Below are positions 1 to 5,453 of a stretch of DNA of 7,671 nucleotides, in pieces. The stretch is taken from positions 1-7,671 of the forward strand of contig JAUVAM010000155.1 in assembly GCA_030591745.1 (NCBI GenBank), in the 5' to 3' direction. Within the stretch, counting starts at the first letter, position 1, and every line of letters begins with the position of its first letter. The translations under genes were made by a program, and so were the position numbers. The DNA is from Deltaproteobacteria bacterium (GTDB lineage: Bacteria > Myxococcota > B64-G9). The notes under the pieces were generated by a model. It did no database searches. It saw nothing but the letters and a program-made list of their open reading frames with translations, and had not been told where the DNA came from.

Positions 1-1672
1 CGCCGCCGCTGTGGTAGTTGGCATCGCCGTTCGTGTCAAAAGCAAAGCCGTTGCTCGCTTGCCCCTCAGACAGGATTCTGGGCAAAGGCGAGCCCCAGGT
101 GTTCCACACGCTCAAATCACCCCCAAAATCATCTTCAAAAGCCAGGGTCGAGAAGGTGGACCCTTCGAGCGGATCGGGGAAGCCACACTCCCCCCTCAAG
201 GCAAGAACTTCAGTTTCTAAAAGAGCACGGTTAAATACCCGCAGATGGTCGATGGCTCCGCTCAATGGATGTGAGCCGTCGTAATCACCCAACTTCTTGC
301 CATGGGTGTCGGTTCCAGTGGCCAAGGCGATGGGGTATTCAACCGCAAACGCTCCGTCCACGAAGATCTTGAGATTGACTCCGTCGTAGCTGACCACCAG
401 ATGAACCCATTCATCGAGCAAAGGATAGTACCCGCTGCCGATCACCGTGCCGTTGGTATCGACGGCGAGTTCGCCGCTGGCCAGAATGCACAAGGAAAAC
501 AACCTATTTTGCGCCCCGCTGTCGCTGCCGTAGGTCAAGATGCCCGCTTGGCTGACGGGTTGAGCGTCGAGGTTCAGCCACAAGGAAAAGGCGAGCGGGT
601 TGGCGCCGTCGGGGAGGGGAACCGCGTCAAAGGCCAAGGCGTCCCCATCATGGAGAAGCACGGCCCCCGCGATGTGTCCGGTCACGATGCTCGGTGCGCC
701 GACGGGCTGCGCGTCGTAAACACCATACGAGCCGGTTTCCTGAAGGAGAGACTTGGTTCCATGATCGAACAAGTAGGTGACGATGATGCTGCCATCCCCA
801 AACAGGTCGTTTTTCTTCAAGGTGTTGCCGGGTCCCGTGCAGGTGGCATTGCAGTCGACAGCACAGATTGCTCCCGTATCGCAGACCTCCGTCCCTTCCT
901 GGGCATTGTCACCGCAGACTTGCAAGCTGGAACAATCGTCCAAGCACAGGCCATCGCCCTCGCCGGGGCCGTCGTCGCAGACCTCGGTTCCCTCCCTCTC
1001 CGCGTTCCCGCAGGTCTGCATGCCGGAACAGTCGTCCAAGCACAGGCCGCCGGGACCGTCGTCGCAGACCTCGGTTCCCTCTCTCGTCGCATTCCCGCAG
1101 GTCTGCAGGCCGGAGCAATCGTCTAAGCACAGGCCTTCGCCCTCGCCGGGACCGTCGTCGCAGGCCTCGGTTCCTTCCCTCGTCGCATTTCCGCAGGTCT
1201 GCAGGCCGGAGCAATCGTCTAAGCACAGGCCTTCGCCCTCGCCGGGACCGTCGTCGCAGGTTTCGCCCGAGTCCAAGTCGCCGTTGCCGCACAGGGTGCA
1301 CACGCCCTGCGTGCAGAACAAACCGGGTCCGCAATCGTCCGACTCGTCGCAAGGTCCCCCCAGCGCGGAGTTGGAAGCGCACACCCCTTCAATGCAGACG
1401 TCCACGCAGTCATCGTTGCTGGTGCAACCGGTGCCCTCAATGCCCTTGCAGACTCCCTCCCTGCAATCCAAACCAGGTCCACACGCTCCGGATTCATCGC
1501 AACTTCCGCCGATGATGGAATAGGCCTCGCAAACCGAATCGATGCAGGCCTCGGGACAGTCGGCATTCACGAGGCAAGAAGTTGGCTCCTCATGGAATCC
1601 ATAGCGTCCGCAGGCAAGGAGGCTGAACGACAAGCAGACAACCCAAAGCTTTCTCATTATTTTTGTCGTCAC
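1..1672 (-). CDS. Surface lipoprotein with DUF4215-type Cys-rich repeats and a LamG-like domain (3' end outside window)
   Basis: Reading the minus strand gives an open frame with no stop to the window edge (552 codons from the ATG at 1657). From that ATG, the N-terminus has a basic start, a hydrophobic stretch and lipobox LLAC with Cys16, so a lipid-anchored exported protein is predicted. Residues 28-121 form cysteine modules of the GxxCxxxxDCGPGLxC type. Residues about 124-248 are four near-identical repeats carrying CGNxxxxGTExCDDG and GLCLDDC, matching the myxobacterial DUF4215 pattern. Residues about 285-491 resemble a LamG/concanavalin-like fold (FSLWLNL, EWVHLVVSYDG, LKIFVDG, GAIDHLRVFNRAL). 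A further domain begins near residue 500 (FEDDFGGDLSVW, DTNGDANY) and is cut by the window. I prefer the in-frame GTG at 1672 because AAGGAAGG lies 8 nt before it; the ATG at 1657 has no close Shine-Dalgarno sequence. The ligand is unknown; glycan binding or adhesion is only an inference from the fold. Confidence 0.9.
   Translation of the reverse strand, partial: MTTKIMRKLWVVCLSFSLLACGRYGFHEEPTSCLVNADCPEACIDSVCEAYSIIGGSCDESGACGPGLDCREGVCKGIEGTGCTSNDDCVDVCIEGVCASNSALGGPCDESDDCGPGLFCTQGVCTLCGNGDLDSGETCDDGPGEGEGLCLDDCSGLQTCGNATREGTEACDDGPGEGEGLCLDDCSGLQTCGNATREGTEVCDDGPGGLCLDDCSGMQTCGNAEREGTEVCDDGPGEGDGLCLDDCSSLQVCGDNAQEGTEVCDTGAICAVDCNATCTGPGNTLKKNDLFGDGSIIVTYLFDHGTKSLLQETGSYGVYDAQPVGAPSIVTGHIAGAVLLHDGDALAFDAVPLPDGANPLAFSLWLNLDAQPVSQAGILTYGSDSGAQNRLFSLCILASGELAVDTNGTVIGSGYYPLLDEWVHLVVSYDGVNLKIFVDGAFAVEYPIALATGTDTHGKKLGDYDGSHPLSGAIDHLRVFNRALLETEVLALRGECGFPDPLEGSTFSTLAFEDDFGGDLSVWNTWGSPLPRILSEGQASNGFAFDTNGDANYHSGG
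914..1288 (-). repeat. Four tandem 96/87-bp repeats coding for DUF4215-type modules
   Basis: Units lie at about 914-1009, 1010-1096, 1097-1192 and 1193-1288. Three are 96 bp (32 residues); the second is 87 bp because it lacks three residues of the GEGEG linker. Each encodes four cysteines in the order CGN, CDDG, CLDD, CSG. Positions 1095-1164 and 1191-1260 are identical over 70 bp, including the rare-looking TTA leucine codon, which points to recent duplication or gene conversion. All length changes are multiples of three, so the frame is kept. Confidence 0.9.
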
Positions 1673-2605: not shown

Positions 2606-2639
2606 ACTAGACGTGCACAAGCCCTTACTTGAGCGAGCC

Positions 2640-2669
2640 TTGACCTGCTTTTTCTGATTGTTGTATTCT
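2640..2669 (+). promoter_or_regulatory. Possible sigma-70-like promoter before the Cys-rich FGE-domain gene
   Basis: TTGACC (2640-2645; five of six to TTGACA) is followed after 18 bp by TATTCT (2664-2669; four of six to TATAAT). A start about 7 nt downstream would fall at or next to the ATG at 2676, so the transcript could be leaderless. That would fit the lack of a clear Shine-Dalgarno sequence there. This rests on consensus matching only. Confidence 0.3.
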
Positions 2670-2675
2670 GGAACG

Positions 2676-2731
2676 ATGAATTATTTGAAAATCTTTATTG
2701 CTTTGGTCCTCCCTGTGTGGACGGGGGGGGG
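2676..2731 (+). other. Signal-peptide coding segment, out of frame with the downstream gene
   Basis: The ATG at 2676 encodes MNYLKIFIALVLPVWTGGG, a lysine followed by a hydrophobic core, as in a lipoprotein signal peptide. In this frame the sequence after the G-run reads SPAVKNQS and loses the cysteine pattern. In the frame of the 2717-4498 gene the same DNA reads GGGLAGCEEP, a good lipobox (LAGC). One added G, or two removed, in 2723-2731 joins the halves with the lipobox cysteine at residue 23 (or 22). The natural gene is therefore probably 2676-4498. Confidence 0.75.
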
Positions 2732-4498
2732 CTCGCCGGCTGTGAAGAACCAGTCGGCGCTTGCGCCAATGATTTGGACTGCCCGGGTCTTGAAATGTGC
2801 ATCGACGGCGAGTGCAGGATTGAATCACCGACTTGTCCCCATGTGCCCTGCGAAGCGGGTGAAGTATGTGTCGAGGGCCACTGTTATCCCGAGGATTGCG
2901 AGACTTACCATTGCCCTGGTAGCGGAGAGGTTTGCGTCGGAGATGAATGTGTGCGGCTGAACTGCGTGGGGATTGAATGTTCTGATGCCGAGGTGTGCGT
3001 GGGGGGACACTGCTATCCCGAGGATTACGAGACTTACCCTTGCCCCGGCAGCGGAGAGATTTGCATCGAGGATGAGTGCGTGCCGCGGTGCTCAAAGATT
3101 GAATGCGCCGATGCCGAGGTATGCGTCGGGGGCCACTGTTATCCCGAGGATTGCGAGACTCACCTGTGCCCCGGCAGCGGAGAGATTTGTATCGAGGATG
3201 AGTGTGTGCCGCTCTGCGTGGGGGTCGAGTGTTCCGATGGCCGGACTTGCGTCGAAGGAACTTGCTATCCGAATGCCTGTACTGATCAGGCTTGCGACGC
3301 GGACGAAGTATGCTTTCAGGGTGAATGTGTTGATAAGGAGTGCCTGGATTTCGTTGGAGTTATCGTATGCGACGAGGTCCCGGATGATTATTGCGCCGAC
3401 GATGTTTTGCGAATTTACGACGATCTGGGCGCATGTCGAGAGGGAGAGTGCATTTATTCCTTCTCCGAAGAAATCTGCCCCTCGGGTTGCCTCGATGCGG
3501 CTTGTCTGCCCTGTCAATCGGATTGCACGCAGGTAGAGTGCGGACCCGACCCTGTCTGTGGCGAATCCTGTGGAGATTGCCGGGACGGCGGTTTGTGTTC
3601 GGTCGAGGGTGTTTGCATCCATTTCAATTTCGAATGGGTGGAAATCTTGCCGGGTGACTTCGTGATGGGCAGTCCGATCGAGGAACCCGGTCGGGATGTC
3701 TACACGGGTCAATGGCCCACCCTGGACGAGACCGCACATAGCGTAAGCTTGAGCCATGGCTTCGTGATCGCCGACCGAGAGGTGAGCCAGGGCGATTTCG
3801 ATGCAATGATGGGCTATAACCCGTCCCATTTCTCCTCCTGCGGTTTCACCTGCCCGGTGGAGGACCTGACATTTCACGAAGCCGCCCTGTTTTGCAACCG
3901 CCTCTCCGAGGCTTTGGGTCTGCCATCCTGTTTTTCCTGTGGCGGGTCGGGAAGCACCGTGAATTGCGACTTCTCCGGTAATTTCGGCTCCCCATATGAC
4001 TGTCCGGGCTATCGCCTGCCGACCGAGGCCGAGTGGGAGTACGCCGCCCGGGCCGGCACCCAGACGGCTTTTTCCAACGGGTCTTTGACGAACAGCAATT
4101 GTAGCCCGCTGGACGCCAATCTGGATGAGTTGGGCTGGTATTTGGCGAATTCGGATGTCGTCTACGAAGACGCCACGGTGATTCCATGCGACGGGCTGGA
4201 CAAGAACGTCGGACCGCATCCGACGGGGCAGAAGAGCGCCAATCCCTGGGGTCTTTACGACATGAACGGCAACGTCTGGGAATGGGTTATGGATTGCTCA
4301 TACAGCTATCCGGAAGGTCAACAAATCGACCAGGTAGGGCCTCTGGATTGCTCTGCTCCCATTTTCCGTGGCGGCAGTTATGGCTCAGCCGCCCTGTATT
4401 GCAGAAACGCCGAGCGTGCCGCGGAACCTTGTCATGGGAGTACTTGTGGCGATATCGGTTTCAGACCCGTGCGCTCTATCGTTACAGTACGAAATTGA
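2717..4498 (+). CDS. Cys-rich repeat protein with C-terminal FGE-sulfatase (SUMF1-like) domain, probable lipoprotein
   Basis: The open frame is 593 residues from a GTG at 2717, but the true start is probably ATG 2676 through a frame break at the G-run. Residues 6-9 (LAGC) look like a lipobox. Residues about 16-300 are disulfide-rich, including three tandem 42/43-residue repeats (49-175) with EVCVxGHCYPED, CPGSGEICIEDEC and ECSDA. Residues about 306-586 are an FGE-sulfatase domain: WVEILPGDFVMGSP, ADREVSQGDF, YRLPTEAEWEYAARAGT, GLYDMNGNVWEW, FRGGSY, GDIGFRPVR. Formylglycine-generating enzymes use two copper-binding cysteines after the GGS motif. Here the first position appears to be Ser556 and only Cys562 remains, so sulfatase activation is unlikely. 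Many bacterial proteins with this fold have other or unknown roles. The gene ends 8 bp before the convergent gene. I infer an outer-surface protein; the FGE-fold call is firm, the function is not. Confidence 0.88.
   Translation: MDGGGLAGCEEPVGACANDLDCPGLEMCIDGECRIESPTCPHVPCEAGEVCVEGHCYPEDCETYHCPGSGEVCVGDECVRLNCVGIECSDAEVCVGGHCYPEDYETYPCPGSGEICIEDECVPRCSKIECADAEVCVGGHCYPEDCETHLCPGSGEICIEDECVPLCVGVECSDGRTCVEGTCYPNACTDQACDADEVCFQGECVDKECLDFVGVIVCDEVPDDYCADDVLRIYDDLGACREGECIYSFSEEICPSGCLDAACLPCQSDCTQVECGPDPVCGESCGDCRDGGLCSVEGVCIHFNFEWVEILPGDFVMGSPIEEPGRDVYTGQWPTLDETAHSVSLSHGFVIADREVSQGDFDAMMGYNPSHFSSCGFTCPVEDLTFHEAALFCNRLSEALGLPSCFSCGGSGSTVNCDFSGNFGSPYDCPGYRLPTEAEWEYAARAGTQTAFSNGSLTNSNCSPLDANLDELGWYLANSDVVYEDATVIPCDGLDKNVGPHPTGQKSANPWGLYDMNGNVWEWVMDCSYSYPEGQQIDQVGPLDCSAPIFRGGSYGSAALYCRNAERAAEPCHGSTCGDIGFRPVRSIVTVRN
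2723..2731 (+). repeat. Homopolymeric run of nine G at a frame junction
   Basis: Nine consecutive G lie between the signal-peptide segment and the lipobox-containing frame. Such runs change length by slipped-strand mispairing and are known contingency switches for surface proteins in other bacteria. They are also frequent sites of sequencing or assembly error. With nine G, translation from 2676 leaves the cysteine-rich frame; with ten or seven it enters it. Confidence 0.9.
2861..3241 (+). repeat. Three tandem ~126-bp Cys-rich coding repeats
   Basis: Units lie at 2861-2989 (43 residues), 2990-3115 (42) and 3116-3241 (42). Each encodes EVCVxGHCYPED-(C/Y)ET, then CPGSGE(I/V)C and a DEC module. 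Unit 1 has one extra residue (VRLNC against VPRC/VPLC). Unit 2 has Tyr where units 1 and 3 have Cys (codon TAC in place of TGC, near 3024), leaving a probable unpaired cysteine. Confidence 0.88.
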
Positions 4499-4506
4499 GC
4501 CCAGCT

Positions 4507-5427
4507 CTAGGCTCGCACCCGCGTTGATTCGATTACAACTGGGGAGAAAGGGAAGGCTTCAGCGAGCGCCAGGCGGATAAGCTTGATAAAGATTTTTTCG
4601 GCCAGATCGCCTGCGCATTCTTTGTTGGCGATTCTTTTTTTTGTGTCCCTGCCGAAGGAATTGAGGGAGAAACCCAGTAACTTATTGCCCTTTTCATCGA
4701 CCACTTGCACTTCGGCTGCAAATTGGGATTTGTACATAGTTCTCCCTCTGAAGTCCGAATGGTCGTCGTCTTTTCGCTTTACTCGAACCTTGGTGATTCT
4801 TGTGTTTTTGCCGTCTCCCGGGAGGATGGAGAACTTTTGGACCAATTCGGCCCAGGTGGCTTTGAAGCTTCCGACCTCGGTGCCGGTCAATTGGCCAAAG
4901 GTGCTTGGGTCAAGCCTGCCGGGAATGAGACCCATTATCCTAGCCCGCAAATCTTTGTTCTTGAGCATGGCGAAATCAAAACAGGCCGCAACTTCCACCA
5001 CGGATGGGGCGGGGACCTCGCCTGCATCCGCCAAGTTGTATCCGTGTATCAGGGCCGGCAGGTTCTTTTTTGGATTTTTGCGGGCGGCATCCCAGAGATT
5101 CTGTAGCTTCGCGTAGTGCTTCCGTTGCTTTTTTGTGTACTTCACGGACGAGTCGGGGACAGGTTCCTTTTCCTGAATGGCCAAGTAGGTATCTATGTGC
5201 TGGATCGCCTCTTTGTACTTCAGGCGTTTCGCTTTCTTTCTTGCGAAATAGACTTGCATCGAACCTTTGTTTCGATGGGTCGGACGCTTGGCATTGCGGC
5301 GGTACCTGGCCGCTCGTTCCCTCTCGGCCAGGTACTCAGCCGTGCTTTGGATCTGGGGAGGGGGAGTCCGTGGGGCGCATGAGATCAAAACAAATCCACT
5401 CAGGAAAAGGATCACCAGCCGTTTCAT
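4507..5427 (-). CDS. Hypothetical lipoprotein, function unknown
   Basis: This 306-residue protein starts MKRLVILFLSGFVLISC: two basic residues, a hydrophobic core and a lipobox (LISC, Cys17), so a lipid-anchored protein is predicted. The mature part starts proline-rich (APRTPPPQ) and continues with a strongly basic, probably helical region (residues about 30-120, many K/R with KK and RR pairs). The C-terminal third looks mixed alpha/beta (MYKSQFAAEVQVVDEKGNKLLGF, then a helix ending KLIRLALAEAF). I do not recognise a family. The fold could resemble assembly or transport lipoproteins, but no motif shows this. The ATG at 5427 has a weak purine-rich site (GGGGTAG). The gene converges on the FGE-domain gene with an 8-bp gap and diverges from the 5539 operon. 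Confidence 0.85.
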   Translation of the reverse strand: MKRLVILFLSGFVLISCAPRTPPPQIQSTAEYLAERERAARYRRNAKRPTHRNKGSMQVYFARKKAKRLKYKEAIQHIDTYLAIQEKEPVPDSSVKYTKKQRKHYAKLQNLWDAARKNPKKNLPALIHGYNLADAGEVPAPSVVEVAACFDFAMLKNKDLRARIMGLIPGRLDPSTFGQLTGTEVGSFKATWAELVQKFSILPGDGKNTRITKVRVKRKDDDHSDFRGRTMYKSQFAAEVQVVDEKGNKLLGFSLNSFGRDTKKRIANKECAGDLAEKIFIKLIRLALAEAFPFSPVVIESTRVRA

Positions 5428-5453
5428 TTTTGTCTACCCCGGAGGATGAAAAG

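Follow-up and report, generated by a model that had tools for sequence, protein, structure and literature searches.

The window (by which we mean the whole 7,671-nt stretch of DNA that we analyzed) encodes, in order, a LamG lipoprotein-like protein, an M50B-type peptidase, a gene that is split at a run of nine G, a 306-aa protein, a DUF3109 protein, and a PGA_cap/CapA-type protein. The LamG protein, which is Cys-rich, and the 306-aa protein are on the minus strand, and both have a lipoprotein-like start (assigned by eye).

The split gene begins with an ATG at position 2676 of the plus strand. A signal-peptide coding segment (MNYLKIFIALVLPVWT, 2676 to 2723) leads into the nine-G run (2723 to 2731), which is the longest homopolymer in the window and whose first G is also the final base of the segment. 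The lipobox, L-A-G-C, follows at 2732 to 2743 (CTCGCCGGCTGT) and shares its frame with the downstream body. The mature body (2732 to 4498) comprises Cys-rich repeats and then an FGE-type domain at about 3632 to 4474. The initial annotation had described a signal peptide from this ATG that is separated by the run from a lipobox in another frame, and the reading frames bear this out. Reading from ATG 2676 gives MNYLKIFIALVLPVWTGGGSPAVKN... and a stop at 2960, for an expected out-of-frame product of 94 aa as read (2676 to 2960). The lipobox and the body lie in a 593-aa ORF (2717 to 4498), with an upstream stop at 2630. We rejected an alternative start for the body: there is no ATG, GTG, or TTG between that stop and the GTG at 2717, which sits behind most of the hydrophobic segment. 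Because no start precedes this GTG, the 593-aa ORF, as sequenced, lacks its own signal peptide. No single frame of the window as sequenced contains both the signal peptide and the lipobox Cys of an SPase II-type lipoprotein. When we looked for a second assembly in which the frame is broken in this way, the 94-aa product had no database relative at E ≤ 0.001 (one candidate, none scored).

Upstream of the ATG, there is a sigma-70-like promoter match on the plus strand at 2640 to 2669 (TTGACC, 18 nt, TATTCT; 9 of 12 positions match; one such match, compared to a mean of 0.2 after shuffling). Its 3' end is six bases short of the ATG. A scan of the closest relative's locus (L001, described below) did not find a counterpart site on the plus strand, though TTGACC is retained.

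The body was previously described as being of a Cys-rich/FGE-domain type, which is confirmed by a match to PF03781 (FGE-sulfatase; E = 2.7e-32, 112.9 bits vs. a gathering cut-off of 23.3) across residues 306-586 of the ORF from 2717. Matches to NCBIfam models (PvdO, GldK, EgtB, and others) were all below the curated cut-offs. Among proteins of solved structure, the nearest in sequence is Treponema denticola variable protein 1 (2y3c; E = 2.4e-25, with the best stretch at residues 340-583), which we take to be a target of a diversity-generating retroelement. It has the same FGE/SUMF1-type domain as the split gene, whose copy in L001 has a lipoprotein signal peptide. Formylglycine-generating enzyme proper has a pair of catalytic Cys near its C-terminus. 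By eye, one Cys is present here (in YCRNAER) and the second position is seemingly not Cys, so a role in surface binding seems likelier than catalysis.

The best protein match to the split gene is P0001, which is intact (607 aa, 89% identity, 99% coverage) and starts with MNYWKNFVVVVLSVWTGVLLAGCQ. It is encoded by L001, from a Deltaproteobacteria MAG (record JAFCZJ010000108.1), which is 90-93% identical to the window at the DNA level over the main blocks. We will call this relative's genome G001. In this orthologue, the signal peptide (MNYWKNFVVVVLSVWT, aligned to the segment in the window) and the lipobox Cys are in one frame (MNYWKNFVVVVLSVWTGVLLAGC), as in SPase II-type lipoproteins. At the place of the tract, L001 has GGGGGTGTTG, which is ten bases long and in frame, with only five consecutive G. 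The earlier argument that ten (or seven) G would join the two frames is arithmetically sound, and the intact relative does have a 10-nt segment there. L001 is the single close orthologue that we found, and the position of the tract is not conserved in it.

For the tract to align with L001, a minimum of one T must have been lost and two T's changed to G; none of the three T's of L001 is present here. In the body, T-to-G changes affect 8 of 413 T sites. At that rate, two adjacent T-to-G changes have a chance of about 4e-4 (computed after we had seen the place), so this segment can hardly have diverged in the ordinary way. The alignment suggests one of three origins: the tract may have been lost in the relative, it may have arisen here by slippage, or G may have been over-called. 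Over-calling would form part of a technical artefact, in which the assembled contig contains a homopolymer indel and the organism's gene is intact, as the relative's is. Short reads typically miscall T as G after G-rich sequence, and the only frame break that we see sits in the longest homopolymer of the window. We consider an artefact possible, if somewhat unlikely; results from the rest of the window and from the assembly of G001, given below, count against it.

To compare the window with L001, we used a protein-guided alignment of all six genes, which covered 2,299 codons; it omitted the final 8 of M50B, where a repeat element overlaps the gene, and the 60 of CapA that are past the end of L001. 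The nine-G run is the only frame break that we saw in this comparison, and a run of eight T (4635-4642) is unbroken, which counts against an artefact. The sole gap is an in-frame unit of 29 codons in the LamG protein. The FGE body aligns without gaps over 588 codons with dN/dS = 0.42, which is close to the value for the intact LamG lipoprotein (0.43); these ratios are averages over both lineages and are blind to very recent loss. The values for the other neighbors are 0.26 (M50B), 0.17 (DUF3109), 0.12 (CapA), and 0.74 (the 306-aa protein). The gapless body and its dN/dS disfavor an old, long-degraded pseudogene, and we rejected this reading; the initial annotation had named a fixed nine G with a degraded downstream gene in relatives as the sign of a pseudogene. 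Since the body is gapless at dN/dS = 0.42 and there is no other frame-breaking indel, the break is recent, switchable, or technical. These comparisons point to an event that is specific to the tract, whether real or technical.

A nine-G run is not rare by chance: in simulated windows of the same size, we found one in 47 of 1,000 (second-order model) to 93 of 1,000 (first-order model). This run is notable for its place between the signal peptide and the lipobox and because we saw no other frame break. In G001, runs of 7, 8, 9, and 10 bases number 313, 92, 25, and 12, which is a geometric fall. The 25 nine-base runs compare to 27.0 expected, and runs of at least 10 bases number 21, compared to a geometric expectation of 11.3. 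Observed and expected counts of nine-base runs in eight other genomes of the family were 11/24.4, 20/20.3, 8/7.3, 15/13.6, 23/34.9, 3/12.7, 16/11.3, and 25/18.5. Across the nine genomes, there was no consistent excess.

That such runs occur at chance frequency fits another explanation, which is that a slippage-prone run suffered a recent, ordinary frameshift. This would be a strain-level loss of function that was not selected as a switch. The absence of a long tract in the orthologue fits as well, as do the rearranged blocks around the gene (relative to L001), and dN/dS would miss a loss this recent. But the body is still open and gapless over 588 codons, and we think that an ordinary frameshift is unlikely. 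It is also conceivable that RNA polymerase or the ribosome slips on the run and so restores the frame as the gene is expressed, which would give a reduced and constant level of the protein. Nine G could plausibly be slippery and the body is conserved, but the orthologue requires no such slippage, and we consider this very improbable.

For runs in the middle of genes, we took those in G001 that are flanked on either side by 40 or more codons of coding sequence. This test qualified 15 of the 46 runs of at least nine bases and left 31 unclassified; by design, it skips runs that are less than 40 codons from a start, such as those at loci L165 and L167 (see below). The qualifying runs were of 9-12 bases, and 14 of the 15 were in frame. 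The other (L146) was labeled as shifted and has an in-frame alternative, so it is ambiguous. With no frame errors in 14 runs, the 95% upper bound on the error rate is 0.19, which applies to the assembly of G001 and not to that of the window. With that difference in mind, this result argues against an artefact. An earlier classifier based on codon scores was replaced, as it was too weak for short signal-peptide segments and scored the window's run as noncoding. It had also called L145 frame-shifted, which we rejected: that run is actually after a stop codon. GGG makes up 15.2% of the Gly codons in this test of G001, so a GGG run that encodes a Gly linker is possible but is not favored.

We then fetched all 46 distinct G001 runs of at least nine bases with their flanks, which gave 45 loci. 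Four of the 46 runs are on the sense strand just behind a lipobox Cys; these are at three lipoprotein loci from two families. L165 and L167 encode paralogous FG-GAP lipoproteins (as identified with Pfam) that have in common their leader, the start of the signal peptide, and a tract of G immediately after the lipobox (AACDPKSP / MACDPKSP). The flanks are the same, and the tract differs: L165 has ten G and is in frame, while L167 has nine G and continues in another frame for 518 codons, as far as the fetched sequence extends. This shared architecture in lipoproteins of the relative counts against an ordinary frameshift as the explanation for the window's gene. The 5' region of the FG-GAP lipoprotein has two copies in G001 and none in the other eight genomes. 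In the third locus (L152), 15 G, NNNNN, and 22 G (460-501) are directly behind the lipobox (IACGQENP), and the assembly is unsure at this very long tract. The lipoprotein encoded by L152 contains HEWGH, and its match to FTP is borderline (21.2 bits vs. 21).

Long contigs of G001 totaling 400 kb gave 53 lipoprotein-like starts (a heuristic count that may over-call). From this density, we would expect about 0.3-0.5 sense-strand runs within 100-150 nt of lipoprotein starts in G001, and we saw three loci. This corresponds to P = 0.004-0.011, or P = 0.04-0.08 if L165 and L167 are counted once. With a 250-nt interval, P = 0.04 for three loci and 0.18 for two. The enrichment at lipoprotein 5' ends rests on few loci.

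Several other features of these loci are worth describing. Near 2600-2684, L165 differs in length from L167, and the open frame of L165 ends 378 codons beyond the run. At L175, a run of 13 G (1544-1556) precedes a lipoprotein-like start (MNQIFTLSLTLCMAISFLGC) by 70 nt; this start was not picked by the lipoprotein criteria that we applied, and a location of the run in the promoter region is possible. At L176, a run of ten G (1535-1544) precedes an ATG by one base, close to the position of the Shine-Dalgarno sequence, and overlaps the end of an upstream open frame.

As a control, we searched for the lipobox word GCCTGY followed by nine G. There were 11 matches: six in G001 (four at the three lipoproteins) and five in the eight other genomes, none of which were flagged by our screen for exported or membrane starts. 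With nine C instead, there were 13 matches (7 in G001 and 6 in the others, including overlaps) at 8 distinct places, 3 of which are in G001. Because this control matches similarly, the word and the tract are not specific by themselves, and only the reading frames make the case. For eight G before a lipobox-like word, 30 loci among the 53 matches listed were screened; the reversed-pattern control also gave many matches. Exported or membrane starts precede runs of 8-9 bases at L298, L314, L318, L325, L326, and L333, and the in-frame continuation is open in each. This implies that other genomes of the family also have in-frame runs near such starts. The screen flagged no run of at least seven bases behind an exported or membrane start in the 400-kb sample of G001. 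Also, none of 20 FGE/Cys-rich loci contained a G or C run of at least eight bases, so the FGE/Cys-rich family as such lacks tracts.

The most likely reading of the split gene, at a probability of roughly 40%, is that it is a candidate homopolymer contingency (phase-variation) locus of a known kind, seen here in one assembled copy. A conserved lipoprotein gene would read through a slippage-prone G tract at the junction of the signal peptide and the lipobox. Slipped-strand mispairing would change the length of the tract and so join or separate the frames of the signal peptide and of a Cys-rich lipoprotein with an FGE fold that is exported, and the window would show the locus caught in its off state. 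We infer that tract length would vary in the population, reversibly and under selection. As in known contingency loci, the gene has a homopolymer that is capable of slipping (the nine G) and is otherwise intact in the other frame beyond the tract. The L165/L167 pair and the in-frame runs in the middle of G001 genes tilt the balance towards switching by slippage. Along with the lipobox-adjacent runs, they favor slippage-type phase variation modestly. The surplus of runs of at least 10 bases in G001 and the 13 G at L175 are further points for this reading.

Several observations count against a switch. Conservation of the tract is the usual hallmark of contingency loci, and it is absent here because the orthologue lacks a long run of G. 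G001 has about as many nine-G runs as expected, and the family shows no consistent excess of them. A lost T (or more) and two T-to-G changes are many within a segment of 10 nt, and over-calling of G could account for them. Finally, in-frame runs near signal peptides are also found in other genomes of the family. The initial annotation offered a phase switch or an indel error: the split lipoprotein and the choice between these options both stand, while the switch itself is partly supported, by the paralogue pair. As to the tract in relatives, ten and nine G behind the lipoboxes of L165 and L167 support it, and the orthologue does not.

The split gene resembles the intragenic poly-G/C contingency loci of Neisseria, Campylobacter, and Helicobacter, which are turned on and off by frame (PMC11868660). 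In both cases, a G tract is near the 5' end of a gene for an exported protein and single-base changes would switch the frame, and the relative of the window has a pair of paralogues in and out of frame. Unlike those loci, the window's gene is from an uncultured lineage and from one assembled sequence, its orthologue has no long tract, and its relative has no excess of nine-G runs.

A broader proposal, which we regard as doubtful, is that a lineage of uncultured Deltaproteobacteria uses G tracts as frame switches for surface lipoproteins with FGE folds, FG-GAP repeats, or similarity to proteases. The tracts would be at the junction of the signal peptide and the lipobox or just behind the acylated Cys. 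We estimate that the lineage has several hundred lipoproteins. The best-documented cases of phase variation driven by repeats are from pathogens and commensals that are adapted to a host; under this proposal, there would be contingency loci outside of host-adapted pathogens, perhaps acting against phage or predators. Our literature search found nothing that joins phase variation, homopolymeric tracts, lipoproteins, and Deltaproteobacteria; among the matches listed for phase variation, Myxococcota were absent and no title concerned this lineage. (The name AB_03_Bin occurs in one paper, PMC10553843, which is about consortia of methane-oxidizing archaea.) The locus is a candidate in an uncultured lineage, with both tract states in the paralogue pair of one genome. 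If it is an artefact, then it illustrates how a lipoprotein gene that is split at a G run is annotated without its signal peptide.

Among viral contigs, there were 143 relatives; 79 loci were kept, with a best identity of 39%, so none of those kept is close. The window and L001 also differ in other ways. In the LamG protein (about 900-1270, minus strand), the tandem Cys-rich repeats (DGPGEGEGLCLDDCSGLQTCGNATREGTE) include one 29-residue unit more than in L001, which is an in-frame length variation in a protein that neighbors the split gene. A REP/MITE-like palindrome at 2502-2606, with 28-nt arms that are 93% complementary, overlaps the 3' end of the M50B gene and is not present between the corresponding blocks of L001; a query containing it had 33 further matches in G001. 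Finally, two adjacent blocks are in swapped order, without inversion: the FGE lipoprotein block (2618-4505 in the window, 9941-11831 in L001) and the minus-strand block of the 306-aa protein (4504-5430 in the window, 8995-9921 in L001).
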